From Hymenopus coronatus (taxonomy: Eukaryota; Arthropoda; Insecta; Mantodea; Hymenopodidae), in the NCBI GenBank assembly GCA_030762935.1, contig CM060900.1, positions 394,557,632 through 394,621,631 on the forward strand: DNA of 64,000 bases, written 5' to 3'. A model generated the notes under the pieces. That model saw only the letters and a list, made by a program, of their open reading frames with translations, did no database searches and was not told the origin of the DNA. Made by a program: the position numbers and the translations under genes. Numbering within the stretch: the first letter of the stretch is position 1; every line of letters starts with the position of its first letter. Of this stretch, positions 12,302 to 59,300 are shown one piece after another.

Positions 12302-13930
12302 GATATAAAAAATACTTATACCTGTTCAAACATATGGAACATCAGAAGCAGACAACTAAACCGCGCACCAACAGATGTAAGCCAGTGCAAACTGTAACAG
12401 AACCTGTGTACACGGACGCAGAGAAATCGGCTGTAGTTGCTGATTATGTGCAAAATCAGTTTAAGACTTAAAAGGAAGACCCGAAAATTTCAAACTTTTA
12501 CAATGAAATAGATCATGAAGCAGATTTCTTAGCAGAAATCCTACAGTAAAAATACAAGTAACATCCCCATCGGAAATAAAAGCTATTGTCCAAAGGATAG
12601 AATAACAAACATAGCAATACAAACTCTACCGAAATAAGTCTGGACAAATATAGCAACGCTCCTTAATAGTAACTTAAAGCTACACTATTTCCGCACTGTT
12701 GGAAACATGCTATTATAATTATGATCTCAAATGTGCATAAAAATCCGGCATTGCCAGAGAATAGGTGACAAGCTAGCCTTCTTTCAGCATTAGGAAAACT
12801 ATTGGAAATAGTGATTTTTTTTACCTATAAAGGAATACAATATTAACCTAATTCCAGATCACCAAATGACCTTTAGACCTGGATGCTCAACTTCACATCA
12901 AGTACTTCGACTAGTAGAAACAATTACTCAGACGTTCAGCTATTGGGGGATTCATACCAGCATTTTTTGGATGTGGCTAAAGCTTATGATTCAGTATGGT
13001 ATGCCGGATTAATTCATAAGTTAATGCATGCAGGGCTTCCGGATGCACTAATAAAGCTACTAGGAAGCTAATTGGATAGCAGAACCTATCAAGTAAGGGA
13101 ATGGTCATATCGTTCAGCATAGTATCCTTTACATACCGGAATCCATCAGGGATCAGTCATCGGACCTGTACTATACAACATCTTCACGTCGGATATATCT
13201 ACAACAACAGGATCAAATGTTTCTCAGTATGCAGATGATATAGTTTTGTTTTCAACAGATATTGATCCTACAAGAGCAGTTAGAAAGTTGTAAAATCACA
13301 TATATTTATACAAGAACTAGGCCAGTCATTGGAAAATACATCTTAACACTGAAAAAACACAAATCATCTGCTTTACAAAATGTTCGCTCAATAGAATAAA
13401 TACGCTAAAAATCAGAAATAAGGAACTAAATTACACTACTCAAGTTAAATACCTCGGTGTGCTATTAGATCAGCTCTTGTTATGGCATAAGCATGTACAA
13501 CAAATAAAAGGAAAAGCAATAGCCAGGACAATCCAACTTTATCTACTATTCAAGTCAGGATATCTATCGATAAAAAGGAAGCTACAACTCTTCAAAACTC
13601 TGATTCTACCAATACTGGTTTGCGCGGCTCCAGCTAGGGGTAAATGGACGATTCACCTTTAAACAGCTGCAGGTTGCACAAAATAAACGTTTAAGAATTA
13701 TTCACGTTGGCGACAGTTATAACACAACTAAAGAAATCAACGAGAACTTGTCTGAGACTTACTTCGAGAATATATTTCACAACATATGCAAGATTTCTAC
13801 CACCGTTTTCAACTGAGTCCAAATCCAGCAGTACGACAACGTGGAAACCACAATATTAATCAATACTTAAGATACAGCACACCAAATACTGCCTAAAACG
13901 ACTGATTTTCCTGTTCTAAATTTTAGGAAG
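12302..13930 (+). pseudogene. LINE-2 ORF2, reverse transcriptase part
   Basis: The domain is broken into several frames. Readable pieces in order are: PDHQMTFRPGCSTSHQVLRL (about 12855), VWYAGLIHKLMHAGLP (about 13000), GIHQGSVIGPVLYN (about 13140), QYADDIVLFSTD (about 13225; the catalytic YADD is intact), and the thumb-like KYLGVLLDQ (about 13450). Stops interrupt at 13069, 13291 and elsewhere. The C-terminus fades near 13680, and the 3' end is probably near 13930, where LINE-3 begins. Dead copy. Confidence 0.8.
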
Positions 13931-13969
13931 GTTTTATAAAAGCATTCATTAACTTTGTAACACAATTTA

Positions 13970-15507
13970 TGTATAGTCAGGGACCATTTGGGCATTTTCG
14001 GTTCTTGTGCCGGCCCGAGTGGGTGTTATTAAGTGCTGTTCTCATGTTACTTGTCATGTACGTTTTTCGCTTGGAGATTTTTCGTTCAAATTACTTTGAG
14101 TACATTGTGATTTTTTTCTTTTGTTCTTCAGTGTTATATTCTTCGTTGGTGTTGTGTGTTTCTCAACAGTTTGTTACCGTACCATGTGGTCATGGAATGC
14201 TCACGGTGCAATGCGCTCAGGGAAGATAGTTCTGCACATCGTATTTCACCATGTTCTGATAAATTACCATTTAAGTCACCAACACGCGCATTTTCACGCA
14301 CCAAGCTCCTGAGTCACGTAGTTTTTCTACAGATAGATCGTCGCAACGCCGTATCCTTGCAATGAATACGAACGATGTTGACGCGGACCTTGACGATAGT
14401 ACCTTAGTTGACCATGACTTACTGGGTTCTCGGTCCTCGTCTATGGGTTGCGACACTGCTGCTGGTTGCAACAACCTAAGCCCCCCATTCGCCCTGCTGC
14501 TATGAATTCAACCTCACCTTGTGTACACAAAATCAGTACTCAAGTCTTCCTATGCACGTTGCATTGTCATCTGTTTCCGCACAGCCTGCGGTATCTGAAA
14601 CATCAGCTCTACGTCTGTCCAAACAACCAGACATTTTTGTCGCTCCCTGCCATGAAAGTATATTATCTTCTCTCATGTCTAACCTTTTTTCTAAGTCTAA
14701 AATCCCTTTTCGTACAAGCTACATGAGAAATGGTCTGAAATTTCTTCTGGATACTTTCTCAGATTTCACTACCGTCAAAAATGTTCTGGAGCATGAAAAG
14801 CTTCAGGTTTATACTTTCACGCCAAACATGAACCCTGTTGTTGTATATTACTTAAAGGTCTACTTCGTGACACTCTTTTAGATGACATCAAACACGAGCT
14901 GCAGAATCCAAATATCGAAATTCTGCACATTAGTCAACTACGTAGTAACAGCGTGGATCCGGAAACCAAGATTAGACAGTCTCTTCCGTTTCCCATCTGG
15001 ATACTTACAATGCAGCAGTGTAAAACCAACTTGAAAATAAAGTCTCTTAAATTCCTACTTCATTTTAAATGGGTATATTCAACGTAGCAGTGCTACCGCT
15101 GTCAGGTTTTGGTCAAAGTCACATAATTGTGCACTCCACGCTGCGTCAAATGCGCTGGACATAAAAACACAACAGATTACGACAAAGATGCTCACCTTCG
15201 TGTTCCTGTGTCAACTGTCAGGGTGCTCATACTGCCAACTATAAGCATGTCCACACCTTCTTTTCCACGTCAAAGCAGTTTCCAACTCTTCCCAGCTACC
15301 ACTTCTACTCCTGCTTCTCCACTAACGGATGCCCCCGCTTCGGAATTTTCGTCTCTTCGAGACTTCATTACTTTCCTGAAAACCATCAATTTTACTACTT
15401 TGCGGGATACCTCCATCAAGATCCAGCAAGCTCCGGACATTTTTACTAAAGCCATCCTCCTACTAGAAGATCTTTGCTCTATGTTTAGCACAAACAACGT
15501 CGAGTAA
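13970..15507 (+). pseudogene. Jockey-like LINE-3, 5' region and ORF1, broken
   Basis: The sequence changes character at about 13970 (cagggaccatttgggcattt), taken as the start of a second LINE in the same orientation. Short ORFs at 14156-14365 and 14519-14881 cover the low-complexity N-terminal gag and a probable PRE_C2HC-like segment. A knuckle-like CTPRCVKCAGHKN is readable at about 15130. The frame 15127-15507 continues into a Ser/Pro-rich linker and an acidic C-terminal helix ending LLEDLCSMFS, as in other Jockey gag tails. Repeated frameshifts and stops; not functional. Confidence 0.6.
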
Positions 15508-15519
15508 CCTTCCAAATCC

Positions 15520-16090
15520 TCCCTTGCGTCTTCTGACTTGGAATGCTCGTGGTCTTCTAAATAAGCTGTAAGAGTTTCTAACGTTTCTTCACATCGAAGC
15601 TATTGACATTGCATTAATGCAAGAAACACATTCGCGTCAGATTTGCAGCATACTTTATTATACATCCGATCGGTATTCTCACTCCACTCAGCCTATTATT
15701 GGGACCTGCATCTATATTAAATCCTATAGTCCTCATATTTTTGTTCCAACTCTGGCTACTCTAAAATCTGTCTACTATACTGCTGTGAAACTCACGACAC
15801 GGCATACGTAGTCTACCATTGGGTCAGTTTATCGTCCTCGTACTACCAAGCTTGTCGATTTTTTGCTTGCTGTCCTGCTGGTTATAAACGCATCCTCTCA
15901 TGCATCCGCAAATGGTTTCTGTTTTCACTACTGACTGGCCTGCATACAAAGAGTACCTTAATGCCTCTCTACCTTCTGCTTCTCACCTGGCTGATATTTC
16001 ACAGCCTGAACTTGGCTCCGCTGTATTCACTTTTACGAGCACCTTGAAAGTGGCATACAACAGCTGCAGCACCGTTCAGCGGTGTAACTA
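15520..16090 (+). pseudogene. LINE-3 ORF2, endonuclease part with deletion
   Basis: The domain starts at PLRLLTWNARGLLNKL (about 15520) with a MQETHSRQ motif near 15617. After GSVYRPRTTK (about 15820) the frame moves to TTDWPAYKEYL by about 15930. In the intact relative at 52.5 kb the same interval (AYDLPN to TPDWIN) is about 350 bp, against about 105 bp here. The GD-N and SDH catalytic motifs are therefore deleted. Endonuclease activity is impossible. Confidence 0.7.
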
Positions 16091-16529
16091 ACCAGTTCAG
16101 TCTGCAGATTTCTCCGACCTGCTCAGACTTGTGCAAGTCAAACGACATGTTCGCCTTCTTTGGCAGCGTAGCAGGAACCTCAGTCATAAAATGGAGTAAT
16201 ACAGGCATTCGGCCATTTTGAAGCGACACATCCGAACTTATCACGAACGTGCTTTTCTCCTGAAAATTCCGGATGCCGCAAAGAAAAGAAATCCGAAAAT
16301 CCTTCGCCCCTCACGTTTATACTGCTAATGGTACCATCTATGCTCCAGCAGATATCTGTGACACTCTGGCTACCCATTATGCTGAACAATTTCAACTTCA
16401 TTCTTCTAATCCTCGCTATTTTATTCCCAATCAAAGTATTGTGACTGCTGTCCGTGTCTTTCTTTCTCTTCCTGCTGTTCAGCCGTGTTTCTTCGCAAGC
16501 ATTACTGAATTTCCTTAACCACTGCACGG

Positions 16530-17880
16530 AGTATCTACCAGAGAATCTCCTGGATTTGACCACCTTTTTGTTGAGCAACTTAAATCTCTGCCACAGAAAT
16601 TATCCACTTGTTTGTTGAGTTTATTCAATTCCTGTCTTCAATATGCGTGCTTCCCAGCGCAATGGAAAATTGCAACGGTTATTTCTATCCATAAACCCGG
16701 AAAATATGCATACCTTTTCTCTTCCTATCGTCCTATCTCTCTACACTGGGAAAACTGTAAGATAAACTAATTCTGAAGCGACTGTATCCACATCTGCACA
16801 CCCACACTCCAACCAGTTTACATGTACTAGGCAGAAATCAGCAGAATTTCAAGTTGCTAGTGTCACAGCTTATATCTCGGCAATAAAAAGACAAGGCATA
16901 TTTTCTTTCCAGAGTTTTCGACTCAGTGTGACATGATGACCTTCTTTATAAGTTACTTCAACGAAACATTCCTGATAAACTTATCCATCTACTCCCATGT
17001 ATCTCCGATCCAGATAATTTGCTTTTCGCAAATTGGGTCGGTCTTCATTCCTCCGGAATATTCACGGGGGAGTGCTAAAGGGGTCTGTTTTGGCCCCTTT
17101 TCTTTATAACTTTTATATATCCGTTATGCCCCTACATAGTAAAATTCAACTGGTGACTTATGTGGATAACATCATTATTCTTCATTCTCATGCTTCTGCT
17201 GTTCATTTGGATCGTGAGTTACATGGCTATGTTGGCCGTTTCAATAGTTTTCTGGAGGCCTGGAGGATACTTCGTAAACTCTGATAAATGTCATATTCTT
17301 TGCTTCTTTCATACACATTCCGTTGGATACACGTTACATGGTCAAGTCATTTCTGTTTCATATAGTCCCAAATATTTGGGGGTTCATATTGATCCCCGGC
17401 CCGGTCTGCATTTTCATAACTCAACAGACTTTCGAAGCACTTAGTGTACTGTTCACTTCCGAATATCTCTCTCTGAGGATAAAGTTTGTACTCTACATTG
17501 CTGCAATTTTGCAAGAAACGTTATATGCAAATCCTGCATGGTTAGATATTTCCCACACCGGTTTACCATCGCTTGCAAGTTAACACGTGCTTTTTCTCAA
17601 ACCCATGACAATTGTTTATCAACACAGCTACAATAACCATACCGTTCAGGCCATTACAAATATGAAATCCTTTCCTGCTATTCTGCAATAACTGGATGAT
17701 CAACAGCGATAACACTTGAGTTGTATTCATGACAAAGCTCATGTTAATTTTCATGAGTCAGCCGAAGGGGCAATAACATTGCTTTTAAATAGCCTCTCAA
17801 AATTTCAATTTCAGTTATTCATCAGTAACATTGCTCATGTTTTCTACATTACACATTCTTCCATATAAAGATCCACAGGA
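16530..17880 (+). pseudogene. LINE-3 ORF2, reverse transcriptase part
   Basis: Readable pieces are: FNSCLQYACFPAQWK with ISIHKPGK (about 16625-16700), SSYRPISL (about 16715), GVLKGSVLAPFLYNFYIS (about 17070), TYVDNIIILHSH (about 17156), and SPKYLGVHIDP (about 17365). The catalytic YxDD box has become YVDN, and many stops intervene. The C-terminus fades before 17900, where the inverted composite repeat starts. This is the most decayed of the three Jockey-like copies. Confidence 0.75.
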
Positions 17881-18059
17881 GGCCTGGAAATAGATGACTT
17901 TGATCCGGCTGTCTCTATGTCGTCGACTCAAATTTTTTAACGGCTATCGCCATGTGATTGACATTGAAATTCGGTTTTCTTTCCATGGCCAGGAGTAAAA
18001 CAAAAGAGAGATGAAACGGACGAGAGCTTTCTTTTGGTATTTAGCTATTTTTTTGTTTT

Positions 18060-18250
18060 TGAGTTATCCTGTACTCATACACGCACACTAAACTTTTTTT
18101 TTATAAAAATGCCCTTTTTTTTGGTTTCAGGGATCCTCAAAAGATGTATTTCCGAAGAAATGTCGGTATTGAATTTTTGGGTGGAGCACAATATCTTGTC
18201 TACCTACTATGTACACTTCACACACCTATTAGAGAAAGTGAGATGACAAA
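18060..18250 (+). repeat. Dispersed repeat R (copy 4)
   Basis: Contains the R 3' block: ggtttcagggatcctcaaaa, gatgtatttccgaag, and the hairpin around ctacctactatgtacac ending in tagagaaagtg. The 5' blocks are missing. Confidence 0.65.
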
Positions 18251-18289
18251 ATATTTGTCTAAGTAAGGTGGATTTGCAGACTTAAAGTG

Positions 18290-18364
18290 TAATAATAATA
18301 GTAGTAGTAGTAATAATAATAATAATAACCATAATAATACGACTACTAATACTACTACTACAAT

Positions 18365-18396
<32 letters not shown>

Positions 18397-18482
18397 ATAA
18401 TAATAATAATAATAATAATAATACGTCTACTACTACAAATAATAATAATAATAATAATAGTAATAATAATAAAAACAAATAA
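18290..18482 (+). repeat. Trinucleotide microsatellite (TAA/TAG/ACT)
   Basis: About 190 bp of interspersed AAT, TAG and ACT trinucleotides. The minus-strand 95-codon ORF across it (long Leu and Val runs) is a by-product of the repeat and not a gene. The matching microsatellite at 22672-22700 is much shorter. Confidence 0.95.
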
Positions 18483-18521
18483 TTGTCCACGAATTTGTAA
18501 GGCAATACTTTGGTGGTTTGT

Positions 18522-18905
18522 ACGAGTGCTATGGTTCAGGCGCTAAGGTCAGTGACCCATATTTGGGAAATCCCGGGATTGATCCTCGGAGAACGGTCAC
18601 TCTGAAACATGAGGTTTTCGTGGTTTCCCCGGGTCGACAGACGAATGCTGGGGTGATTCGTTGCCTATCACGACTTTCCATTCCATAATTTCCCTACCCA
18701 TCACTTCCTGGACATCTATTTCAGGATTGCATGTCCGGACACTGGTGCTTGATGGGTTGCGGTTGGACAGTGACATGCGCTCTAGGGTTTCTTTCTGGAA
18801 TGACTTCAATGTCCTGCCGGAGAGAATCTGCTTCCGTAATCCTTCGGGTTGGGCGCTCTCTCGTAGTGCCATCAGGGTTCTGGGACTTGTTGGAGTGCGC
18901 CACGC
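18522..18905 (+). mobile_element. SINE-like element, family F (copy 1)
   Basis: The tRNA-like head (gagtgctatggttcaggcgc, then a box-B-like gggattgatcctcgg) begins near 18522. It is followed by the family body phrase gtggtttccccgggtcgaca and a GC-rich 3' part. Inverted counterpart at 22255-22620. Shorter relatives lie on the minus strand at 61500-61685 and 62930-63105. ORFs in all frames are incidental. Confidence 0.65.
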
Positions 18906-20188
18906 GAAATTGGATTTGTTCTATCTGGAAACATCATGAACTCCGGCCAAGCTTGCGCTGATCGTCATCCATGCGGGTTACTCTCCTTATCCCTCCCTAG
19001 AGGGTCACGTAAGTCACAAAGAGCCACAAGGTCCCACAGACAGGTTGGGGGCCCCATCCACGGTAATCCTAATCCTGATGATTATGGTTTGTCATCAATT
19101 ACGCTATGTCCGAGAACTGGAACTACCATTGTAATTCATAATTGAGCAGCGCGCACCGCAGGCTACCTCGACAGCCACGACAAAATGTGTTATCATTAGT
19201 TGTTTAACTGCTTGCAAATAAAAATTATGATACCAACCTCAGCACATAATAAAATAAGTATACGTATCTGAATCTCATGGTACTTTACCTGTTTCTAAAC
19301 CTGCAGCATGCTGGATCTACTGCAGGCTGGATATAGGGCTCCCCGTATTCTTTGTGGGTTGGAAAATATTACTATTGTTATTATCATTATTATTATTGTT
19401 ATTATTATTACTATTATTACTACTATAAATAGTATAATCCAGGCTTGTGGGCCGTTGTCTATCGGGCTCCTTCTTCTTCCCAGACGTTTCGTCTGCAACT
19501 ACAACAGTCATCTTCTGTGGCAATGGCGAGGTCGATGTACTATTGTGGAAGTTCTAACTTCAACTGTGCTGGCTGTCAAGGTTAAGGTCATTCATTATAT
19601 GCGTTTAATATACGTTTAAGTCTTGTTCCAATACATTGGATCCAGCTTACTGGTTAGATTTGCATTTATTAATTCATTTGGTTGTCTTTTTGGTTATTGC
19701 CGAATCTATAACAAGGCGCTCTTTGAGCCTTTGAGTATAGTTTAGTTTCTCAGATTTTTTCAGTAGAATTCCTTTTTTGAGATTTGGTTGTTTTTGTTTC
19801 GTTTTACATATTTACACTATATACACAGTTATTTACACAATATATACACCCATCCACACTTAGGCACACATACTGTGGTTTGTAGTATTTATATCAACGA
19901 CCTCTGCAGGAGATCTGCAGTGAATGGCTCGAGATGGCGGTGGACTGACCTTTTCTCGACGGAGTGCTGCGTTCCGTTGGCGTCAGATTCGCTCGGGTGA
20001 TATTTTTAATGTTGACTTTCGTTAGTGCTGTTTGGCACATTCTATTTAATATATGAGGGGCTTTTTGCGATTAATGTTGTTTTTATGTTTCTGAATTTCA
20101 ATGGCTTCACGATATAAACGGGAATGGTAATGAGATGTTGATACCGGAGTATCTGTATTTTCCCTCTGAACAATATGTTCTCCTTCTT
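18905..20188. other. Gene-free stretch with repeat fragments
   Basis: Contains an ATT-type microsatellite (19365-19432) and, at 19440-19560, a segment with ccagacgtttcgtctgcaac followed by cagtcatcttctgtggc. Its reverse complement resembles the gaagatg...gacgaaacgtc motif of dispersed retroelement ends. A (TA/CA)-rich tract lies near 19800-19870. No gene is recognised. Confidence 0.4.
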
Positions 20189-22925: not shown

Positions 22926-23128
22926 CTCATCCATTTCATTTCTCTTTTGTTTTACTCCTGGCCATGTAAAGAAAACTGAATTTGAATGACCATCACAGCC
23001 ATAGCCGTTAAAAATTTTGAGTATCGCTTTAACCTAGTGTATTCCCTTATTTGCCTTCTACTTTTAAGGTGCTAAGTAAAAACATCGTGATAATGTTTAT
23101 CTTTATTAGCATTAAGTAGATAAAAGGG

Positions 23129-23466
23129 GTCGCCTTCTTAGCGCGGTGGTAGCGCAGTTGCTTACCAAGCGAGAGACCTGGGTTTGATTCCCAGTACCGG
23201 CGTGGGGATTTTTCCCTCGCTGGGAGTCCTGGACCGGCCTCGTGAGATCCCTGGGGGGGGGCAATTGAGGAGCTACTTGTTGGAGAAGTAGCGGCTCCAG
23301 GTCATGAGGACCGCATTAACCGGCCGGAAGGGATTCGAGGCGCTGACCACGTCTCACCCTCCAATACTGCATCCCATCCATGACGTCTGTCATGAACCGA
23401 GATGGGGGACGCAGCGGCCGGGCGGTAGGCTAAGGTTCCTAGTGAGCTGTCGTGCCATGGAGTTGT
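23129..23466 (+). mobile_element. tRNA-derived SINE, family B (copy 1)
   Basis: The tRNA-like head has box A tagcgcggtggtagcgcag and box B gggtttgattccc within the first 75 bp. A GC-rich body follows (gaggcgctgaccacgtctca) and ends gtgccatggagtt. A near-identical element lies at 44068-44410, so the family is comparatively young. The boundary with AT-rich flanks is sharp. Confidence 0.88.
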
Positions 23467-37067: not shown

Positions 37068-39780
37068 TGCTACCTTCCGTGGCAGGAGAAGCTGGAGCTC
37101 ACTTAGCAGGAGAACCTGGATCTCACCTAGCAGGAGAATCCGAAGCTCACTTAGCAGGAGAACCTGGAGCTCACCTAGCAGGAGAATCTGGAGCTCTCTT
37201 AGCAGGAGAACCTGGAGCTCACTTAGCAGGAGAATCTGAAGCTCACGTAGTGAACCTGGAGCTCACATAACAGGAGAATTTGAAGCTCACGTAGATGAGA
37301 ACCTGGAGCTCACGAGCAGGAGAAAACCGGTGCTCACGTAGCAGGAGAACCTGAAGCTCACGTACCAGGAGAACCTGGAACTCACTTAGAGAAGAACCTG
37401 GAGCTCCCATGGCAGGACAGGATAACCTGAAGCTCCCATGGTAGGAGAACCTAGAGCTCACGTGACCGGAGATCCTGAAGCTCACGCAACCGGAGTTCCT
37501 GGAGCTCACGTAGCAGGAGAACCTGGAGCTCCCGTGGCAGTAGAACCTGGAGCTCACTTAGAGGAGAACATGGAACCCCCATGGCAGGATAGCCTGGAGC
37601 TTCCATGGCAGGAGAATCTGAAGCTCACGTGACTTGAAATCCTTTGCTCACGCGACCCGAGATCCTGGAGCTCACGTAGCAGGAGAATCTGAAGCTCCCG
37701 TGGCAGTAGAACCTGGAGCTCACGTAGAGGAGAACCTGGAGCTCAAGCAGTAGATAACCTGAAGCTCCCATCGCAGGAGAATCTGGACCTCACGTGACTG
37801 GAAATCCTTAAGCTCACGTGACCCGAGATCCTGGAGCTCACGCAGCAGAAGAATCTGGAGCTCCCGTGGCAGTAGAACATGGAGCTCACGTAGAGGAGAA
37901 CCTGGAGCTCAAGCAGTAGAAACCTGAAGCTCCCATGGCAAGAGAATCTGGACCTCACGTGACTGGATATCCTTAAGCTCACGCGACCCGAGATCCTGGA
38001 GCTCACGCAGCAGGAGAATCTGGAGCTACCGTGGCAGTAGAACCTGGAGCTCAAGTAGAGGAGAACCTGGAGCTCAAGCAGTAGAGAACCTGAAGCTCCC
38101 ATTGCAGGAGAATCTGGACCTCACGTGACTGGAAATCCTTAAGCTCACGCGACCCGAGATCCTGGAGCTCACGCAGCAGGAGAATCTGGAGCTCAAGCAG
38201 TAGGAGAACCTGAAGCTCCCATTGCAGAAGAATCTGGAGCTCACGTGACTGGAAATCCTTAAGCTCACGTGACCCGAGATCCTGGAGCTCACGTAGCAGG
38301 AGAATCTGGAGCTCCCGTGGCAGTAGAATCTGGAGCTCACGTAGAGGAGAACCTGGAGCTCAAGCAGTAGAGAACCTGAAGCTCCCATGGCAAGAGAATC
38401 TGGACCTCACGTGACTGGATATCCTTAAGCTCACGCGACCCGAGATCCTGGAGCTCACGCAGCAGGAGAATCTGGAGCTACCGTGGCAGTAGAACCTGGA
38501 GCTCAAGTAGAGGAGAACCTGGAGCTCAAGCAGTAGGAGAACCTGAAGCTCCCATTGCAGGAGAATCTGAAGCTCACGTGACTGGAAATCCTTAAGCTCA
38601 CGCGACCCGAGATCCTGGAGCTCACGTAGCAGGAGAATCTGGAGCTCCCGTGGCAGTAGAACCTGGAGCTCACGTAGAGGAGAACCTAGAGCTCAAGCAG
38701 TAGAGAACCTGAAGCTCCCATGGCAAGAGAATCTGGACCTCACGTGACTGGATATCCTTAAGCTCACGCGACCCGAGATCCTGGAGCTCACGCAGCAGGA
38801 GAATCTGGAGCTACCGTGGCAGTAGAACCTGGAGCTCAAGTGGAGGAGAACCTGGAGCTCAAGCAGTAGGAGAACCTGAAGCTCCCATTGCAGGAGAATC
38901 TGAAGCTCACGTGACTGGAAATCCTTAAGCTCACGCGACCCGAGATCCTGGAGCTCACGTAGCAGGAGAATCTGGGGCTCCCGTGGCAGTAGAACCTGGA
39001 GCTCAAGCAGTAGGAGAACATGAACCTCCCATTGCAGGAGAATCTGGAGCTCACATGACTGGAGATCCTGAAGCTCAGGAAGCAGGATAACCAAGAGCTC
39101 ACGTAGTGGGGGAATCTGGAGCTCCCCTGACAGGGGAACCCGGAGCTCACGTAGTAGGAGAACCTGGAGCTCACGTAACAGGGGAACCTGGAGCTCCCGT
39201 GGCAGGAGAAACTGGAGCTCACGTAACAGGGGAACCTGGAGCTCACGTGGCAGGAGGACCTGGAGCTCACGTAACAGGGGAACCTGGAGCTCACGTGGCA
39301 GGGGAACCTGGAGCTCCCGTGGCAGGAGAAACTGGAGCTCCCGTGGCAGGAGAACCTGGAGCTCACGTGGCAGGAGAACCTGGAGCTCACGTGGCAGGAG
39401 AAACTGGAGCTCACGTGGCAGGAGAAACTGGACCTCACGTGGCAGGAGAACCTGGAGCTCACGTGGCAGGAGAACCTGGAGCTCACGTGGCAGGAGAAAC
39501 TGGAGCTCACGTGGCAGGAGAAACTGGACCTCACGTGGCAGGAGAACCTGGAGCTCACGTGGCAGGAGAACCTGGAGCTCACGTGGCAGGAGAAACTGGA
39601 GCTCACGTGGCAGGAGAACCTGGAGCTTACGTGGCAGGAAAACCTGGAGCTCACGTGGCAGGAGAAACTGGTGCTCACGTGGCAGGAGAAACTGGAGCTC
39701 CCGTGGGAGGAGAACCTGGAGCTCACGTAACAGGGGAACCTGGAGCTCACGTGGCCGGAGATGGAACTCACGTAGGAAGA
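37068..39780. repeat. 24-bp minisatellite with higher-order structure
   Basis: About 2.7 kb built on a 24-bp unit ggagctcacgtggcaggaga plus acct. Three zones are visible. The left zone (37068-37640) has variable units. The middle zone (37640-39060) has a higher-order period: the marker gacccgagatcctgg recurs at 37654, 37820, 37985, 38151, 38271, 38437, 38604, 38770 and 38937. Its spacing is 165-167 bp except for one 120-bp step. From 38271 on, alternate units are alike, giving a dimer of about 333 bp. The right zone (39106-39770) is a homogeneous array of near-perfect 24- and 48-bp units. Because 24 is a multiple of three, long ORFs open on both strands. Confidence 0.95.
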
Positions 39781-42899: not shown

Positions 42900-44760
42900 T
42901 GAGCAGGCAATTGTTCGTCAAAGCATTTGCCAAGTGAAATGTATCTTCGGACGATGAGTCAGATAAAATCCAGGTATGCCAGATGATGTACAGATAAATG
43001 CGAGAAACTAAGAGATAACCAGAAAACCCTCCCTGACACCATACACAAGTTTTTGATGCACCAGTATTTGAAGAGGTAAAGACTTTGCAACTGAGAAATA
43101 TTTCTTGAGATATATTTCACATAATATTTTTCAGCTGATAGTCTCCTGTCATCATTTGCACCCACAGCTAAATTATTAGGCAAAAATTCTCAGGAGATTG
43201 AACTGTTTTGAAATATACTAAACTTTTATCGCAGGTTAAGAATGCACTGGACTATCGGTCCTAGGGTTGATGAAATAGTAGACATGATGTCCCGGAAACT
43301 TTTTTTCTATAAGAAGTTCACTAAAACTGGTGGTTGATGGTGAAGAACCTAGTGATCAACGAAATGAAGACACATTTTGAAAGGTACACACTTACTGGGG
43401 AGACGAAGATCAGGTTGTCTTGGAGAAGTGGAAAATTGGCTGTGGATGAACAAATTGCTCTTTTCTGAGGCCATGGCTCAATGAGGCAGTATATCCGTAG
43501 TAAACCAATGTGGATTAAAAAAAATTGTCTACTCCTCACCGAATGGTGTACCACTATATTTTTTCTGTCTATACGAGGGTAGAAATTACACCATTCTCAG
43601 GGGCTATGAATTTCTGAACACTGGTGGCAAAGCAGTTATACGGCTTGCAAGCTCATTATACCCAGGTTGAACTACCTATATGGATAGATATTTTATGTCC
43701 ATTGAAATATTAGATTGTTTGGATATCAGAAGAAGCTGCCAAGGCACTGGTACAATTCAGAACAACAGATTTCCAAGTATCAGCAAGCTGCAATTAGATA
43801 GTGTGATGAACAAAATGGGCGGGGCTCTGTTGACCACTGTATTAGGGGGATGACCAGATATCCACTATAAAGTACTATTACAAAAAGCCTATGCTGCATG
43901 CACAATTTATTGTAATGAAACTGCCTTTAGGACAGTGTTAGCATTGGTCTAAAAGCACCAAAAATACGTATTGGTAAATATAACTCAAATTGTATCAAGT
44001 TACAATGCAAATCTGGGAGGAGCAGACCTTTTGGGCACAATTATTACCAGCTATAGGAAAGAAAGGTCGTCTCCTTAGCGCGGTGGTAGCGCAGCTGATT
44101 GCCAAACGGGAAACCTGCGTTCGATTCCCAGTACCGGCGTGGGGATTTTTCCCCCACTGAGAGACCTGAACCGGGGTGCACTCAGCCTCATGAGGTCCCT
44201 GGGGGGCCAATTGAGGAGCTACTTGATGGAGATGTAGCGGCTCCAGGTCATGAGGACCGCATTAACCGTCCGGGAGGGATTCGAGGCGCTGACCACGTCT
44301 CACTCGCCAATACTGCACCCCATCCATGACGTCTGTCATGGACCGAGATGGGGGACGCAGAGGCCGGGCGGTAGGCCAAGGTTTCTTGTGAGCTGTCGTG
44401 CCATGGAGTTATTATAGAGGAAAAAACAAACAAATGGAAATGACAATTAGGTTAATTTTTCACAGTTTTGATTAGGTCTGCTCTGTATCATGGATCAAAT
44501 ACAGGAGGAATAGTGTAGCAGTGAAAAAGAAAGAAAGATATGCTTGGCTACCTCAAATTGAAAGTAAATGTATCTGAGTGACTGTTCTTCTCAGAAACAA
44601 AGAAAAAAGATGTTGAAGAGGAGTCGGAAGAAATCTTCATCACCTCATCTGAGCCAACCAGAGAAAAAAGTTGGAGGATCACATTTGCCAGATATCTCTA
44701 ATGATGAGAAAAATCACAGCTGCAAATTGTCTAGCTACAAAAGTGTTAGGGCAAGAGCGT
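42900..44760 (+). pseudogene. piggyBac-type transposase, broken and SINE-interrupted
   Basis: Readable fragments in order are: DDVQIN (about 42980), GKLAVDEQIALF (about 43430), GSMRQYIRSKP (about 43475), VIRLASSLYPG (about 43650), TYMDRYFMSIEILDCLDIRR (about 43674), GTGTIQNNRFPS (about 43740), and YNANLGGADLLGTIITSYRK (about 44003-44062). The SINE at 44068 then splits the frame, and MTIRLIFHSFD resumes at about 44442. These are signature blocks of the piggyBac transposase. All three catalytic Asp positions (VDEQ, MDRYF, GGAD) still read as Asp, although stops and frameshifts separate them. The Cys-rich C-terminal domain is only weakly readable. Inverted copies of element M lie on both sides. 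The gene is dead. Confidence 0.85.
44068..44410 (+). mobile_element. tRNA-derived SINE, family B (copy 2), in piggyBac
   Basis: Very similar to 23129-23466: box A tagcgcggtggtagcgcag, box B cgttcgattccc, and the same body and ending ccatggagtt. A likely target-site duplication flanks it: tataggaaag at 44053-44062 and tatagaggaaa from 44413. It splits the piggyBac coding frame between TSYRK and the C-terminal part, so the SINE is younger than the transposon. Confidence 0.9.
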
Positions 44761-49985: not shown

Positions 49986-50680
49986 AAGTGTTAATTAAGG
50001 CAAAAATAAGCTTTTGCTACCAATTGGGACTTTAAAACGGTATAATAAGCCTAATCAAAATTTAGTAGTAAAATTTAAAGAGAATACTTAATAATTAAGC
50101 AAACACACCATTTCATTTAAGCTTTGTCATAACGCGAGTAGTCAGTATCAGTAATCGAAATACAGCTTTTGTATCGAGTTTCTTATTTTCTTCAACCAGC
50201 CATAAACGTTCTTAGAAAAACGACCAATCTAATTAAGACATTTCTTCAACATAGTATATCCTAATGAAAGGAAGTTTTGGTTCTGTAGGCATTCTGAAAC
50301 ATGCGAATAAATGTAAATTTTAGTACAAGTCTACTAGATGGAAATCTTGAACTTATGCGGGATATTGTTCTTAGCTGAAGTGTGAAACGGTAACATTCAG
50401 AAGCATAACAAATTACGGGTACATTAATTATTTATATAATATTTGTTTGTTCCCATGTATCATGTATAAACGTCTGTTTCAAGAAGTCTTTGGGAATACA
50501 GGATCTGACGAACAAGAGGGTTGAAGCCAGGGAGAATATCTTTGTTTAAGCTAAGGGAAAGTGTTTACAGCGTCGACTAGCGGATCTCCCTACCCCCGAA
50601 ATTGCATTGTAATATTTTAAGCATTCAGGAAAGAGGTGTATGTTTGCTACCTGGACAGAAGGTATGAGGACAGAAAGGGG
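49985..50680. other. Gene-free stretch before LINE-1
   Basis: AT-rich. GC rises near 50680, taken as the approximate 5' limit of readable LINE-1; the true 5' UTR start may lie within 50480-50690. Confidence 0.4.
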
Positions 50681-50687
50681 TTGAGAT

Positions 50688-52482
50688 GTGACGTGCATGG
50701 TTCGCACAGGCGCCTCCTCAAAGGAGGTCCGGCCCTCTGCGGACAGCCGAAGAGCAACCGCAACTACTTCGACTTGTAATAGTGGGCAGCAGCCCAGTAC
50801 CAGCAGACCTGCTCCCTCCCCAGAGACGGCTGAACCTTCGCGTAAGAAGCAGGACGTCTACTGGCGGCAGCAACAGGCGAAAACCATCTTCGCCACACCG
50901 CCTGGTTGCGGTAGAGAGTAACCCAACCAGTCCTTACACCATCCCCATGCCCGACTCCGACACCGACGTCGAGCCTGACGGGCCATGGATAACTGTCCAC
51001 GCGGGGGGCCGCAGAAGCGGCCGTTCCTCCCCCAACCCAACTACACCACCACAGGGAAACAACCAACCCCCAATCCAAAAGGGGGGCGTAAAATCCCGCC
51101 TATAGTTGCCGATGCTTTCCGCAACCACGTCGTGGTAATGAGGAGGCTGGCAACGAAACTTAGGGGGCCCTTCGAGGCCCGGCGGAAGCTAAAGAAAGTC
51201 CACCTCCATACCTCCTCGGAAGGGGACTTCGAGGCGGCGAAGGCTGTCTTACGGGACGAAGAAATCCCGTTCTACAGCTACTCGCTGCAGCGGCCCTACG
51301 TGGAGCGTAGGAATATACGGGGCCTTGACTCCGACTGTACCCCGGAGGACGTCAAGGCGGCCCTTCAGGACGAGTACAATATCACCCCTACCTCCGTGGC
51401 ACGTCTCAGTAAGACGGTGGCAACAGACGACGGCACTCAGCGAGTGCCTATGCCCTTATTCCTGGTCGTGGCACCAAATGAAGGCGCCCAGACAGTCCAG
51501 CCGATAGACGCTGTCGGCTTATCTTCACCGTCGTGCGTATCGAAAGATATCACGGCAAAGAAGGACCTGTGCAGTGCCATAGGTGCATGGGCTTCAACCA
51601 CTCCAGCAGTGTGTGCGAGCGCAAGCTCGCATGCCTGCGGTGTGGTGACGCCCATTTATGAGGGACTACACAAAGCCTTATGAAGCTCGCCACTGCGCGA
51701 ACTGTAATGAGGCGCATGTGGGCACATACAGGGGCTGTAAGGTGCGGAAGCGCCTGTTTGAGAGCAGCCGTGGAGGACTCCAGGAGCTACTGTGCACCCT
51801 GGGGTGTCCTTTGCGTCGACACTCAACCGCGCTGAGGGAACACTGCGCGCCGCAGAGGCAGCAGCAACTCCCGCCTCCGCAGTCACTGCAGAGACTGTGC
51901 CAGCTCTGTCCTCGACGGAGACCCCAACCCCCCAACCAGGTCCGTCTACATCGACGGAGGAAGCCGCTCCGACACCCTCGGCAGAGGGCCCACGCCGGAC
52001 TTCTTCAAAAAAGAAATTCAAGAAGAGAGGGAAGAAGACCCTCCGGGCGCGCGGCCAGCAGGGCCAATCAGAGGCTCCCACCACTGAGACCCGTGGCCCC
52101 GCCTCCCGCACGCCAACACCGACCAGTCCCGGAAGCTCCAGCAGCTCCCGCCGCAGTACCGACAACGGCGACTCCAGCGGCAACCCCGCTGGTAGTCCCC
52201 GCCACAACCCCGACAACGGATGCTCGTGCGGCAACCCCGCCGGTAGCTCCCGCTGCTCCTGCGACAACAGCGGCTTCCTCGGCCTTCTCAGCGGCCATCC
52301 CACAGGCGGACCTGGATGAACTTCAGGGCCTAGCCCTGTGGTTCGGTGACCTCCTAAGTAAGGTCTTACCTATACTGCGCAACTTTAAGTTGCAGTACAG
52401 TGACCCCAGACTCTCCCCCCTCCAGAAACACACCCTGTTCCTCCAAACGTTGGAGCAGTTGTACCCGGGTTCCGCTAAGTAA
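50688..52482 (+). pseudogene. LINE-1 ORF1 (gag-like), multiple frameshifts
   Basis: The protein is readable only by changing frame about six times: near 50905, 51080 (inside a run of six G), 51515, 51655, 51780 and 52290. The order of parts is a Ser/Pro-rich N-terminus, then VADAFRNHVVVMRRLATK, then a PRE_C2HC domain (NIRGLDSDCTPEDVKAALQD, about 51310-51500). CCHC knuckles follow: CHRCMGFNHSSSVC (about 51570) and CANCNEAHVGTYRGC (about 51697). Next come a Pro/Ser/Thr-rich linker and a C-terminal segment DELQGLALWFGDLLSKVLPI. Gag proteins of this type bind the element RNA. The stop TAA (52480-52482) overlaps the ORF2 ATG. Confidence 0.85.
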
Positions 52483-52484
52483 TG
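52480..52484 (+). promoter_or_regulatory. TAATG ORF1-ORF2 overlap
   Basis: The ORF1 stop TAA and the ORF2 start ATG share one A. Overlaps of this kind are known from some LINEs, where ORF2 is made by termination-reinitiation. The preservation here suggests the same coupling in the active ancestor. Confidence 0.6.
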
Positions 52485-55184
52485 GCCTCTAGATTAGTCC
52501 GGAGACCATTACGACTCGCGTACTGGAACGCGAACGGTATCCGGACCCAACGCCCAGGCGTTCTTGAGTTTGTACAATCGTACGGAATTGACATCCTGAT
52601 GGTCTGCGAAACCCATCTGGATGCTGTTACTGACTTTTCGCTGCCTAGTTACGTCACCCATCGGTCTGATCGGGTCGGCCGACAGGGTGGCGGTACAGCT
52701 ATCTTCATTAAGAACCACATAACCCATACTCCTGTCCAAATCCCAGCACTACAGCACGTGGAGGCCTGTGCAATCCGGCTTGACGTTGGCGGGCTCGAAG
52801 CGCTGCTGATAGCCGCATATGACCTGCCAAACCACCGCTTCCTCGAAGCGGACTATACCACTCTACTAAACCTTCACCCAGTGGTATGCGTCGCAGGAGA
52901 TCTCAACGCGAAACATGCCCACTGGCATAGCCGCACCAACAACCCCCGAGGCCGCGGGCTCTTCCGCCTCATCAGCGGTAACCCCAGCCTCGTCGCGCAC
53001 GGACCGAGAGGACCTAAGTGTCATCCGGCTCGCGGCAGACCGGATGTTCTTGACATCATAATCACCAAGAACATACCATTTCATCTAGACCTATCGGCGG
53101 TAAACGAGTTGGACTCCGACCACGACCCTGTCGTGGTTGATACAACCGAGACCGTATCAGCTCTGGTAACACCAGACTGGATAAATGAGATCGACTGGGA
53201 CGCAGCCGTCCTAGACCTAAATCAAACCGTGGATCCGCGACCTCGCATCGATTCCATCGAGGCGCTGGTAGCGGCAGCCACGGCTTTCTCCCGACAAATC
53301 CTGAATGTGGTACGCGCGCACACCTACCGCATCCTATCTGACAAGCCTAACCCGAGAAACATTCCTAACGAACTCCGACAGCTGCTAAAAGCCAAGGCAA
53401 CCGTACGGAAGCTATGGCAGCGCTTCCGCCATCCCAGGATCCAAGCAGTGTACCAGCGGTTCAAATCCCTGGCAAGGCGCCTGCTTCGCGCGCACTGCAA
53501 AGCGGCCTGGGAGCACACAATGGCAAATGTAAACCTGGAAGAGAAACAACCCTGGAGGATCATTCGATCCCTCTGGAAAGACAAAAGTCAGTTTCAGCAT
53601 CCCATCCATGGCACCCGTGGGAGACTCTCTTTTGAGCCCCAGGATAAAGCCACGGATTTCGCAGATTATCTGGAGTCTCAATTCGAACCCTGCGAAGACC
53701 CCCAGGACGAGGACTTTACTGAGCTCGTGGAAGCGACGGTAGACTACCTCTACGATGAGCCCCCGCCGCCCCACGATGAGATCCGCATTCCTTTATTCAC
53801 CCCGAAAGAGGTGGCTTCCCAACTCACCAACCTAAAGCCTAACAAAGCCTCTGGGCATGACGGCGTCACGGCGCCTATGCTCCAACACCTACCCCGAAAG
53901 GCCGTAATCCACCTGACGCGGATTTACAATTCATGCCTACACCTACGTCACTTTCCAACGTGTTGGAAGGAGGCGAGGTTGGTATGCATTTAGAAACCTG
54001 GCAAGGATCCGGTCTTCCCGTCAAGCTATAGATCTATTAGCTTACTTCCGATCGTCTCGAAAGTATTCGAGCGGTTACTCCTACCTCGCCTCACCCCTCT
54101 CTTCGAGGAGAGACTCCTACTCCCGGATCACCAGTTTGGTTTCCGTACTGGACATTCCACAACCCTGCAGTTGCTGAGACTGGCTGAGAAGACTGCCCTG
54201 GGCTTCCAGGACAACTTCAAAACAGTCGCGGTGCTCTTGGACGTGGAAAAAGGCTTCGCCACCACGTGGCATCAGGGACTCTTGTACAAACTCAAGAACG
54301 CAGAAATCCCTCCCCCCTACCTACACCTGCTTAGTAGCTTCCTTCGGGACCGCACTTTCAGGGTGAGCGTGGAGGGGAGGCATTCCACAGTCAGACCCAT
54401 AGCGGCGGGAGTGCCGGAAGGCAGCGTGCTGTCGCCGTTACTCTTTGCCGCCTACATGTCCGACTTCCCCACAGAACCCAGTACAGTTACTTGCCAGTAT
54501 GCCGACGATGTCCTCATAATGGCACGTAACAAGAACGCCCGGTATTGCTTCCCCCCGCTACAGAGACAGCTCCAGGCCATAGGCAGATGGAGTGAAAAGT
54601 GGCGGATGGCCATTAGCCCGCAGAAGAGCTCAGCTCTACTGCTGGCTAAAGTCCGTGGCTGGCGGCCGGAGAGGTCGCTGAGGTTGCGGCGGCGGTGGAT
54701 CCCCTGGGTCCGCACCGCCAAATACCTTGGAGTCCTCGACCGCGGCCTTACTTTCACTCCACATGTCAGGGAGAAGGTCGGTATGGGACACGCTGCCCTA
54801 CGGCAGTTGTTTCCCATCTTCCGCTCCGCCATGCCTACATACCTAAATCTACGGCTGTACCGCGCGGTCATCCCGCCCCTGATGCTGTACGACTGCGAGG
54901 TCTGGGGTTCGGTGGCTCGTTCCACCATCTGCAGAGTGCAGACCGTGCAAAACAGGGCATTGAGGATGATATATGGCACATACCATAGACTCCCGTCCCA
55001 CATTCTCCATTCCCATTCCGGAATACCTTACATAGTGGACGTTGTGCGAGAAAGAGCTCGCACAATATACACTAAACTTGCTCCTCACCCAAATCCTCAG
55101 GTGAACACTCTCGGTCTTTACGACCACACGCTGCCTAGGACACGCGTAAGCTACCGCCTTCCCAAGGACGCCTTGGGATGGTAG
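52482..55184 (+). pseudogene. LINE-1 ORF2 (endonuclease-reverse transcriptase), one stop
   Basis: A single frame of 900 codons, interrupted only by TAG at 53991-53993 (codon 504), just before the reverse transcriptase motif KPGK. The endonuclease domain lies at residues 1-225: LAYWNANGIR, CETHLD, AGDLNAKHAHW (about residue 138) and DSDHDPVVV. The reverse transcriptase spans roughly 440-750. It contains SSYRSISLLP, HQFGFRTGHST (about 550), motif A LDVEKGFATTWH (Asp 587 kept, but the usual AFD reads GFA), VPEGSVLSPLLF and QYADDVLI (about 672). The C-terminal tail is intact to DALGW. The enzyme would nick DNA and copy element RNA at the site. Apart from the stop, all catalytic residues look present. 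Confidence 0.9.
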
Positions 55185-55186
55185 TT

Positions 55187-55289
55187 TTCGGCCGCCTTTC
55201 CCTTCTATACAGTACTACCCGCCAAGTTAAGCAGCATCGGGAGCGGTCACAGCTCGGACGGGTGACCGTCCAGTTGTACTGCGACCGGA
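55187..55289 (+). ncRNA. 5S-rRNA-like module 1 in LINE 3' region
   Basis: Starts three bases after the ORF2 stop. It contains aagttaagcagcatcggg (5S box A plus intermediate element) and cggacgggtgaccg (box C region), in the order and about the spacing found in 5S rRNA genes. The ends ttcggccgc and gcgaccgga can pair in 8 of 9 positions, like 5S helix I. It is about 103 nt against about 120 nt in 5S, with the part before box A shortened. It is not a functional ribosomal gene in this position. Confidence 0.8.
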
Positions 55290-55345
55290 TCTGCAACACT
55301 GGCTTTCCCCCACCCCGTACCTACATCCTTTCAGTTCTCCCCGCT

Positions 55346-55461
55346 AGCCGGCACTGCTTTCCTTGACAGCCCGCAAGCGGCTGGCCAAGTTAAGCAGCAT
55401 CGGGCCTGCTCCCTCTCTGGGTGGGTGACCACTCCGGTAGGTAAGCCAGTCCGCGCCGGCT
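55346..55461 (+). ncRNA. 5S-rRNA-like module 2 in LINE 3' region
   Basis: Contains ccaagttaagcagcatcggg and gggtgggtgaccactcc, the 5S box A, intermediate and box C motifs. The termini agccggc and gccggct are perfectly complementary (7 bp), and the length (116 nt) is close to 5S rRNA. Outside the boxes it differs from module 1, so it is either an old duplication or an independent acquisition. Confidence 0.8.
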
Positions 55462-55783
55462 GCACAGAGGGAAACACCCTGCCCACATTACTTCGACACA
55501 GACATAAACGCTTGCACAAGACTACATCTTTTATATCACACGGGTAAATCGGCGAGAAAAGCGGATAGGTACCGTGGTGATGTGCCCCCGCCCGAGTACA
55601 CTCGGGCGACTAGTTCCGGCTCCTGGATCGTGGCATGTGACGTGCAAAGAGTCCGGGTGGATATGCAAGTGAAAGTGGTGAATGTGCTAGTGTCGAGCCG
55701 TAATAACATAAGTCCGAAATATTGTAGGCTCAGTGTTTGTACCAATAAGTATGCTACACTACGATGTACACTATTTTCAGTCA

Positions 55784-55789
55784 AATAAA
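55784..55789 (+). terminator. Polyadenylation signal of LINE-1
   Basis: aataaa, 600 nt after the ORF2 stop and downstream of both 5S-like modules. No A-tail follows directly, so it may be internal. Confidence 0.45.
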
Positions 55790-56149
55790 GTACTATATGC
55801 AGCAATTGTGTGTTGTGTGTTAAGTTAATTTAATGTGTATTCCCATTTGGTTCCCCACTGAGTGAATCCAAAAACATGCTCTACCATTGACTCCGAACCA
55901 AACTTCCTGAGTAGCCGAGGGCAACAAGTGTATCAGTGGCGGACTGTAACGTCAACCAGATACGTCACTCTGAGGACCTGCGATCTTGACAGGTACACTC
56001 ACACACATACATACATACACACAGTACGTCGCAAGTGATTGCTGTTATCATTAAACCACATAGACTAAACCTTTATGCCGAGTTGATGTTCCACTGGAAG
56101 ACATTTTAGCATATGCTGAGGACGTGACGAGTATTCAACCATGGCCTGG

Positions 56150-56340
56150 ACGGAATTGTAGGAGAGACCACAATCCGATCTCGGCGTTCAGGTAAGGCTG
56201 GTACTACTGGACGTTGAGGATGACAGGATACACACCCAGTCCTGCCAGCGGAAGAATATCCCCATACGGGTACCGAGAACTGAACCCTGGTCCCTCCGCG
56301 CCAGAGGAAAGTGCACAACTGTTTTAATGGAACGAACACG
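56150..56340 (-). mobile_element. tRNA-derived SINE, family H
   Basis: Minus strand: the head begins near 56335 and has box B-like agggttcagttctcgg near 56290. A GC-rich body runs to about 56150 (gagatcggattgtggtctct). Single copy in this window. Confidence 0.7.
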
Positions 56341-59300
56341 CATATTGTGCGCGGAGAAAATGCTTATTACGTTATTATTTATCTATTTACCAGAAATATT
56401 AAAACAAATATTCTCTGATTATGTAATTACAATCTCCCCATGCTTCTCGTCATTTGAGAGAAGTTGTTGCTTAGTTAGCTACATTTTTCATGCGTAAATG
56501 TGTTGTCTGACATATATAAACTCTGAGATTCAGCTAAAGTCTACAATTACTCAAACTGTTCAAGATGATGCATGTGAAGGAACAGAGAAGGAAGGTTTTA
56601 TACATAAACAATTTTTTTGTCATGGCATAAGTGGTATTGGTAACATGTTTCACTTATCATTTAAATGCCTAATATTAATAAATACTGAATAATTCATTTA
56701 AAATTTTAAATACATTATCGTTATAGCAAATAAAACAACAATAAAACACAGTAAAGCATACTTTGCGAAAAGAATGCAATTAATAAAGAAGAGAGAAACC
56801 CCTTTGGACCGCATTAGGTACGCTTATATATTCTCAACCCTGCAACATTCCTTATGGTGAAGGTGTTGCCTACTGACACGGCGACGGCGTAGCGTGATCA
56901 AAATTGGTCATTTCCTGGATATGTACTTGAGGGGACCGATGTGATAGGTTTAAAAATCTCAAAGGACCTTTCTGAGGCTTTTCAACTCTTTATCACATCT
57001 TATGTATGTATAAGAAAGTGTGGCTTCAAAGTGGATTATGCATTTTAAGACGAAAATTTATCAACTATTTAATAGAAGAAAAGTGACTTATAATGAAACT
57101 TTTGTACTTTACAACAAAATTTCAGGTTTAGCTTTAAATTGAGGCTGCTAAATAGAGTAATTTTAAGTTAATTGATTTTGTGTGATAATGTTTGTTGTAT
57201 TGAGAATTCATTTGGAAAACAATTGGGGTAGGCTTGGTGGCATAACACATTTTCCTCACAACAATAAACACTTAGTAAGATTTAGTCAAGCAAGTGTTAG
57301 TAAGGAAGTGTTGGGAAACTGTTCCAGAGTTTCATTTTGATAACTTAAAGCTATATTGTGAGGTAAATGCTGAAAATATTTAAAATATTACAGCAAAAAT
57401 ATTGAAAAACTAGGTTATACTATCTGGTTTACGTACTTTTTATGAAATATTGTAAGTTTTGCTTTAAAGCAATAATTTACAAACTGATTAGCATGTGTGC
57501 ACCACATTTACAAAAACTCTTAAAGAGAGTTTGGCAAAAGTGTTACAAATCTCAGCAGCATGCCTTCCGCTCTACTTTTTTATATTTTTAAGAAAGTTTG
57601 TCATTTTTACTTCGATATAAAACAATTATTAACACACGTGCCTAGGGAATTGGATATAATTATGAGCTAATCGTTTAAATTGGAATGTTTGACAATTTCT
57701 ACCCATTTTTAGCGATCGGTCCTTTAAGTTGCGAATGATCACAGTCTACTTATTACAGTCACCAAGTTGGATTTGTAGAGAATACGTATTGGTTTGTCAG
57801 TTCAAGCAATTGTGATGATGATGAGTGGGGCTTAAGGGTGCTCAACTTCTTGGTCATAAGTTCCCTGCAATTCTAGTGCTCCTGTTGGATAACCACTAGG
57901 ATCATCTAAACAGAAACAAAATAGGCTTACATTATTTTGAAAATATAAACACATTTCCCCTATTTTTCTGCCAATTGTTATTATTAGTATTATTGTTATT
58001 GTTTAAACACTATAGATCATATATTAGGTAATATTTTAATGAAGTATAACAAATGCATATATAAAACACGGAAACATAGGAAATACTAGCAGAAAGAATT
58101 ATTATTTGAGGTGTTTAGGCATAACGGCATTTAGAATAATATTGTACCATAATAATTGTTTCCATTCATAAGTTGTGCCAACCACAACTGGATCATTAAT
58201 ACTTGTATTTTTACGTTTCAGTGAGGTAGATCGTCTTACGAACACTTCTTACCGGATCTTTCGGAAATAAGAATAAACGTGGCCTCCATTTGTGCTGTTA
58301 GTACAATTTATAACATTATGAACATCTCGAACATAGGACAGTTCACAAACTGGTTGATTTTTCCTTTCATAGCGCAGAACCTGTAAACCTTTAGCCTCCG
58401 TGACACTAATATACGCAAGTAACCACCAAACCACCAACGTAAACTAGGTCGACGCTAGGACAAATTGTCGTTCTTGATGAAGACACAGAACTTTCTGTAG
58501 GCATTTTGTATAGATTCATTTCTAAGATAAGATATTTTAGTATCTATTTTCAACATTTTCGTCAACACATTAATTAAACTGGATATATTAGAACATACAG
58601 AAATGTTAGCTCGTGAGCACTTTAGATTACGTCGGGTTCATATATGAATAAGCAGTAGTTATAACTCCAAATACATATTCATATACACATGATCTCGCCA
58701 AAACATATGTACTTCACTTTTATCCTGATAAAGGCTGAATGAGAATAGTTTACGTCAAAGATTTTCAACCTAAGACTCCAACAGTAATTCGAGTAAAAGA
58801 ACCTCTTTTTTTCGTTCGAAGTTGCTCCTTGCGTTGCGTTAAATAGCAAAAGAGTGCGAAACAAGAACGTCAGTTACACAAATATATTGCGAAATTATTC
58901 AGTTGCTACTGTTACTTCACTAGGTGATCTAAATCAATTTTCGCTGTCAAGTAGGTAAATTATTACTGTTATTCACTAGAATGCAATTCAATATTCCTTG
59001 TCTACACTTTTGTTTGTGACGTAGCGACATAATGAGATACACGTAAAGCAGCCCTTTCTATAAATGGTTCACACGCTGGTGAGTTGAACACAACACGACT
59101 CTAATCTCTACCAGTAGCAGCAATCACTGTAGGTCACCAATGTCGTCACAAACTCACTCTTAGAATTGTACTTGATGTTGAATAAGAATCGCACTCATCA
59201 TTTCACTAAGTGATTGACTCGCAGGCGTGCATTCCAACATAGCCGCTGGAACGTTCTAGAGGGTTCTAGAATATTCGTTAAACGGAGAGAAGAAAAACTT

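Follow-up and report, generated by a model that had tools for sequence, protein, structure and literature searches.

Mobile elements that have captured the promoter of the 5S rRNA gene have been described from several groups of organisms. In SINE3 elements (HaSE3, PxSE4, PxSE5, CsSE2 and SINE3-1_TC), according to the accessible parts of the reports, the 5S-derived region is best kept in boxes A, IE and C and is joined to the 3' end of a LINE (PMC3272025, PMC8010984, PMC7245038). In the TRIM element Ajax only the promoter part of the 5S gene was kept, and the predicted fold is not 5S-like (PMC10886601, available sections). Mammalian chimeras in which 5S sequence is joined to LINE-1 are also on record (PMC13174262, in the part available), and in Tribolium freemani Jockey-like LINEs are found next to 5S sequence, lying between the 5S genes, while 5S sequence inside a LINE is not mentioned in the available portion of that report (PMC11202950). 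The locus described here carries 5S-like sequence twice within what is probably the 3' untranslated region of a LINE. As a tentative explanation, which we prefer to each of the others without giving it even odds, we propose that this LINE acquired, where its 3' UTR begins, two stretches derived from 5S rRNA and that the boxes of the type-1 Pol III promoter survive in them at their natural spacing.

The window, by which we mean the whole 64-kb stretch of DNA that was analysed, contains one nearly intact LINE on the plus strand, with the following features:

50686 to 50697, strand not applicable: possible left target-site duplication of 12 bp, an exact repeat of 55635 to 55646
50698 to 55634, plus strand: probable extent of the LINE, from the flanking 12-bp repeat and the G+C content
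50979 to 51680, plus strand: first open stretch of ORF1 (Gag-like), an open frame
51649 to 52482, plus strand: second open stretch of ORF1 in a different frame, with one zinc-knuckle motif at 51694 and a stop at 52480 to 52482
52482 to 55184, plus strand: ORF2, endonuclease and reverse transcriptase, from domain matches (PF03372, PF14529, PF00078) and reading frames
55589 to 55608, plus strand: hairpin with a perfect 8-bp stem, located 26 nt ahead of where the LINE probably ends, from a hairpin search and the letters
55635 to 55646, strand not applicable: possible right target-site duplication of 12 bp, an exact repeat of 50686 to 50697

Assignment to the LINEs follows from ORF2, which unites an APE-type endonuclease and a reverse transcriptase in one reading frame (PF03372, PF14529, PF00078); it is interrupted by a single in-frame stop (53991-53993) and closes with TAG at 55182-55184. 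ORF1 consists of two overlapping open stretches in different frames, the first of which gave no Pfam or NCBIfam match and the second no Pfam match and, in a homologue search, no homologue. The stop of ORF1 and the start of ORF2 overlap in the letters TAATG (52480-52484); UAAUG overlaps couple translation in the LINE SART1. Nine relatives, unnamed or doubtfully named, were found at 26-44% identity, and the label 'Jockey-like' is a provisional one, given from domain order and similarity to unnamed proteins and not from a reverse transcriptase tree. With a ribozyme at the 5' end in mind, Rfam was searched over 50600-50900 and yielded no match. At the end of ORF2 a perfect 8-bp hairpin of the TCCCAAGGA-CGC-/TTGGGA type (55160-55178) is followed by TTTT at 55185.

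The limits of the LINE are approximate. The G+C content drops near 50698 and 55634 and climbs again at 55850 and 56150. The 12-bp flanking repeat may be the target-site duplication that bounds the element, and it is only weak evidence for these limits, since at least 12 shared bases were also found in 201 of 1348 random region pairs, about 15%, when the regions had the size of the original search (152 of 1500 draws were omitted). With the size unchanged and a 24-bp array elsewhere in the window left out, 158 of 1000 random pairs did as well as the flanking repeat; in narrower regions, which were chosen afterwards, 16 of 1929 pairs were as good, with 71 of 2000 draws omitted as too close. The array in question (37078-39761) comprises 112.5 copies of the 24-bp unit and is open on both strands, one frame matching the Cornifin family. 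Two further stretches, 11378-13620 and 15500-17269, are remnants of additional LINEs, whose endonuclease and reverse transcriptase are related, and two dispersed repeat copies (23128-23464 and 44065-44410, 88% identical) probably represent a tRNA-derived SINE, their start matching the Rfam tRNA model (23132-23202).

The 3' UTR of the LINE starts at 55185 and contains two 5S promoter cores:

55221 to 55267, plus strand: 5S promoter core 1, with the box A part at 55224 to 55241, the intermediate-element position at 55242 to 55247 and the box C part ending in GGGTGACC at 55260 to 55267
55384 to 55430, plus strand: 5S promoter core 2, with the box A part at 55387 to 55404, the intermediate-element position at 55405 to 55410 and the box C part ending in GGGTGACC at 55423 to 55430

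Both cores are 47 nt long, lie 163 nt apart and share the layout GCC, AAGTTAAGCAGCATCGGG, 18 bases, GGGTGACC. The 18-mer AAGTTAAGCAGCATCGGG occurs exactly twice (55224-55241 and 55387-55404) and, with up to 3 mismatches allowed, nowhere else in the 64-kb window, the expected number being 0.02. GGGTGACC closes both cores at an equal distance from it; box C alone is at chance in the window, with 2 found and 1.33 expected. A box A 12-mer with up to 2 mismatches was of no use as a marker (11 found, 6.34 expected). The promoter boxes of the 5S gene, which we take to be located at 5S positions 50-64, 67-72 and 80-97, are to be compared with two matching parts that span 5S 49-66 and 85-92. The internal promoter boxes stand at the natural spacing of a 5S gene, with the intermediate element only partly kept: module 1 reads AGCGGT, 5/6 of the element in the provisional Bombyx reference, and module 2 reads CCTGCT, 5/6 of that in the provisional human one. 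That the 5S internal-promoter motifs occur in order in both modules, as the preliminary description had stated, is confirmed here for motifs, order, strand and positions. A stretch of the LINE 5' UTR (50796-50818) resembles part of module 2 (55393-55415) at 78% over 23 nt, a similarity that may be due to chance.

Agreement between the two modules is confined to a part of their length. The box A and box C parts are identical at 26/26 positions and the bases between the boxes at 6/18 (Fisher p about 9e-7, an optimistic value because the limits between the classes were set where the matches lie). Ungapped 40-nt flanks of one module agree with those of the other at 7/40 and 6/40 positions (13/80), and when the 5' flank, the 3' flank and the spacer were aligned with gaps, 60, 46 and 132 of 300 shuffles, respectively, scored at least as high. 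Conservation is thus found to track the promoter boxes. A recent duplication would have kept the remaining sequence alike too, and it was probably selection that held the boxes, in the LINE or in ancestors such as SINE3, between which two copies cannot separate.

Comparison with provisional 5S reference sequences of Bombyx, Drosophila and human was made by local scores against 1000 dinucleotide shuffles. Core 1 agrees without gaps over 45 nt with 37/45 positions of the Bombyx, 34/45 of the Drosophila and 32/45 of the human sequence. Against Bombyx 5S, modules 1 and 2 score 50 and 34, with shuffle maxima of 24 and 22 (n=1000), and against Drosophila 35 and 28, with maxima of 26 and 27, a narrow result for module 2. 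The scores against human 5S are 25 and 29 (maxima 25 and 27), so that human 5S fails to separate module 1 from shuffles. In addition, a covariance model (R1) was built from five eukaryotic 5S reference sequences, likewise provisional; its two matches in 85,566 bases are both at these modules:

55187 to 55291, plus strand: 5S-like module 1, with 19.6 bits (E 0.0014) and a fold of its own that is not 5S-like
55347 to 55462, plus strand: 5S-like module 2, with 15.9 bits (E 0.02) and a three-way-junction fold

With filters off, R1 also gave 13.9 bits at an unrelated stretch inside ORF2 (54307-54380, minus strand), probably by chance. R1 accordingly backs the cores more than a whole 5S fold, and module 2, with 15.9 bits, barely rises above noise. 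No notable R1 score was obtained in 10500-19500, the region of the two LINE relics, where the best was 9.3 bits (E 0.23). The Rfam 5S family, presumably RF00001, gave no match at its gathering threshold over the whole window, and three short stretches remained without one even when E values up to 10 were admitted. Measured by the refuting outcome named in the preliminary description, the lack of a significant 5S covariance match, the Rfam result speaks against complete modules, and the result of the eukaryote-only R1 speaks for them.

The preliminary description had further proposed that each module can close with a terminal helix of 8/9 and 7/7 pairs. This proposal found no support: closing helices of 8/9 pairs in module 1 and 7/7 pairs in module 2 were reached in 199/400 and 200/400 shuffles, respectively, and an alternative of 9/9 pairs in module 2 in 37/400, so that full 5S modules closed by terminal helices were rejected as unsupported. 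Module 1 prefers another fold that is not 5S-like. Module 2 forms a three-way junction resembling that of 5S, whose energy was reached by 2/500 sequences with a shuffled 5' part; the topology as such appeared in 82/500 of these sequences, in 22/500 full shuffles and in 8/247 windows along the LINE. The letters of the 5S loop E were seen by eye in neither module. Considering the lack of an Rfam match, the helices at chance, the fold of module 1 and the noise of R1, we claim 5S-derived promoter cores and not 5S RNAs. Of the two tandem 5S-like modules originally reported after ORF2, the 5S-derived stretches are therefore upheld by sequence, but not as complete 5S modules, given helices at chance, no Rfam match and a junction in module 2 only.

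The folding results also bear on a role at the RNA level, which is a doubtful but serious candidate. A folded 3' UTR with 5S pieces might serve as a tag for the reverse transcriptase or Gag, in the manner of stringent 3'-end recognition, or as a platform for 5S-binding proteins. The 3' UTR (55185-55634) indeed folds below 100/100 shuffles (z -3.29), a finding that agrees with such a tag, as do the three-way junction of module 2 and the hairpin close to where the LINE probably ends. Five consecutive A do not occur within 55462-55660, as expected of poly(A)-independent elements if the LINE ends there, and stringent LINEs require their own 3' UTR, according to the accessible part of the literature (PMC3747384). 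However, the conservation between the modules follows the boxes of a DNA promoter and not a fold, modules 1 and 2 fold differently, the terminal helices are at chance, and loop E is not recognisable in either.

We consider it equally doubtful that the two stretches are passive fossils, brought in from 5S genes or from SINE3 through template switching or read-through and now without any function, their boxes having been conserved in the source. Such an origin would be in line with the mammals that carry a LINE joined to 5S sequence (PMC13174262, available part), and a possible route is indicated by Tribolium freemani, the 5S arrays of which are regularly interrupted by Jockey-like LINEs (PMC11202950, available part); the tandem arrangement of the two stretches would suit an origin in a tandem array. 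Yet the parts of real 5S genes outside the boxes should decay no faster than the boxes, and here the flanks cannot be aligned while the boxes agree at 26/26 positions. A SINE3 source with flanks that had already diverged escapes this argument.

Whether the cores belong to the LINE is judged from their position. R1 places the beginning of module 1 at 55187, the third base after the TAG stop (55182-55184), in agreement with the initial observation that the first module begins three bases after the stop codon. The cores are probably part of the LINE, on the basis of this position directly behind the ORF2 stop and of a flanking repeat that is only suggestive; that they are shared by the LINE family, and not only by one copy, would be an extrapolation from this single copy. 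In the contig collections, the core pattern had 0 matches among viral contigs and 0 among genome contigs, and a pattern of the single 18-mer had 0 in viral contigs. A control pattern from the 3' part of eukaryotic 5S found one viral contig, with a partial R1 match of 10.3 bits and no Rfam match, and the zeros in viral contigs say little because the control found almost no eukaryotic 5S there. Searches for the reverse transcriptase or endonuclease gave none that was confirmed with single proteins in viral contigs; query set A1 (8/9 relatives) gave two loci, and query set A2 gave none in viral contigs and two loci in genome contigs. The loci L001-L004 contained none of three motif strings and no R1 match.

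The position of the modules is also relevant to the possibility that one or two 5S-headed SINEs entered only this LINE copy, at a time when the LINE was already in place, which we regard as improbable. Insect SINE3 families that could supply such elements exist, as stated in the accessible parts of the reports (PMC3272025, PMC8010984). Against a later insertion, the regions searched showed no exact 8-nt repeat flanking one or the other module, the modules are not separated by an A-rich or simple-repeat tail, and module 1 stands directly behind the stop. Chance resemblance, which the absence of an Rfam 5S match, a box C that alone is at chance and the failure of human 5S to separate module 1 would favour, is very improbable in view of the two occurrences of AAGTTAAGCAGCATCGGG with 0.02 expected, of Bombyx scores (50 and 34) that exceed the maxima of 1000 shuffles (24 and 22), and of the equal spacing in both copies.

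Returning to the uptake of 5S-derived stretches whose promoter boxes survive, which we tentatively prefer, a mechanism can be proposed. TFIIIA and TFIIIC would bind the DNA of the cores. Initiation by Pol III takes place about 50 nt ahead of box A, which for core 1 would put the start close to the ORF2 stop. The first possible stop signal lies behind both cores:

55529 to 55532, plus strand: TTTT, the earliest candidate for a Pol III stop after the two cores, from a scan for T runs

Runs of four T within 55150-55650 are found at 55185 and 55529; that none occurs across 55189-55528 is, in our judgement, not unusual for G+C-rich DNA. The RNA from core 1 would be roughly 340 nt long if it ended at the TTTT at 55529. 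A read-through RNA would include the hairpin at 55589-55608 and the probable 3' terminus of the LINE, whose reverse transcriptase could copy it, and this product would be a SINE3-like RNA made from inside a LINE. Several points count against this reading: the sequence upstream of core 1 is ORF2, the intermediate element is kept at 5/6 and differs between the modules, no Rfam 5S match was obtained, the limits of the element are only suggested, and one LINE copy is at hand. Moreover, to judge from the available parts of the reports, promoters of the 5S type have a greater dependence on signals lying upstream, and those that were retroposed presumably have little or no activity (PMC3272025, PMC8010984).

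A stronger version, in which two functional Pol III promoters of the 5S type are maintained in the 3' UTR across the LINE family and give rise to short 3'-end RNAs that its own reverse transcriptase can copy, seems unlikely to us, more so than either the RNA tag or the passive fossil. If true, an autonomous element would make its own SINE from within, which would offer a direct route to the origin of SINE3. SINEs headed by 5S sequence occur in vertebrates and insects, and the joining of a 5S promoter to a LINE tail has so far been deduced, as an outcome of template switching. A LINE that already had 5S cores downstream of its stop codon and ahead of its 3' terminus would provide the intermediate ready-made, with a Pol III unit nested in a mobile element that Pol II transcribes. 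Should other copies share the cores, the origin of SINE3 would become testable within one genome.

Among the known systems, SINE3 elements share with these modules a 5S-derived head. They are short and non-autonomous and have the 5S part at the 5' end, whereas in the present LINE two cores follow the coding region, and a short non-autonomous element with its own target-site duplication was not recognised, no exact 8-nt repeat being present in the regions searched. Ajax resembles this locus in having kept only the promoter part, and its own predicted fold is not 5S-like. Ajax and Cassandra, however, are LTR elements without coding capacity that have one 5S part per LTR, while the present element is a LINE with endonuclease and reverse transcriptase; among 20 of the 30 repeat families listed for 50000-57000, no long direct repeat that could represent long terminal repeats was found. 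The mammalian 5S/LINE-1 chimeras, as described in the accessible part of the report, are single events on the 5' side of the LINE, as a rule truncated and in antisense (PMC13174262), in contrast to the sense orientation, the position 3' of ORF2 and the double occurrence found here. No LINE with 5S sequence in its 3' UTR was encountered among the matches listed in a search of mainly open-access literature other than Repbase Reports, a literature search by sequence strings gave no match, and the accessible parts of the reports cited above describe no autonomous LINE with 5S promoter sequence behind ORF2. Mobile elements with captured 5S promoters are a known kind, of which a LINE with such sequence behind ORF2 would, within the literature covered, be a new form.
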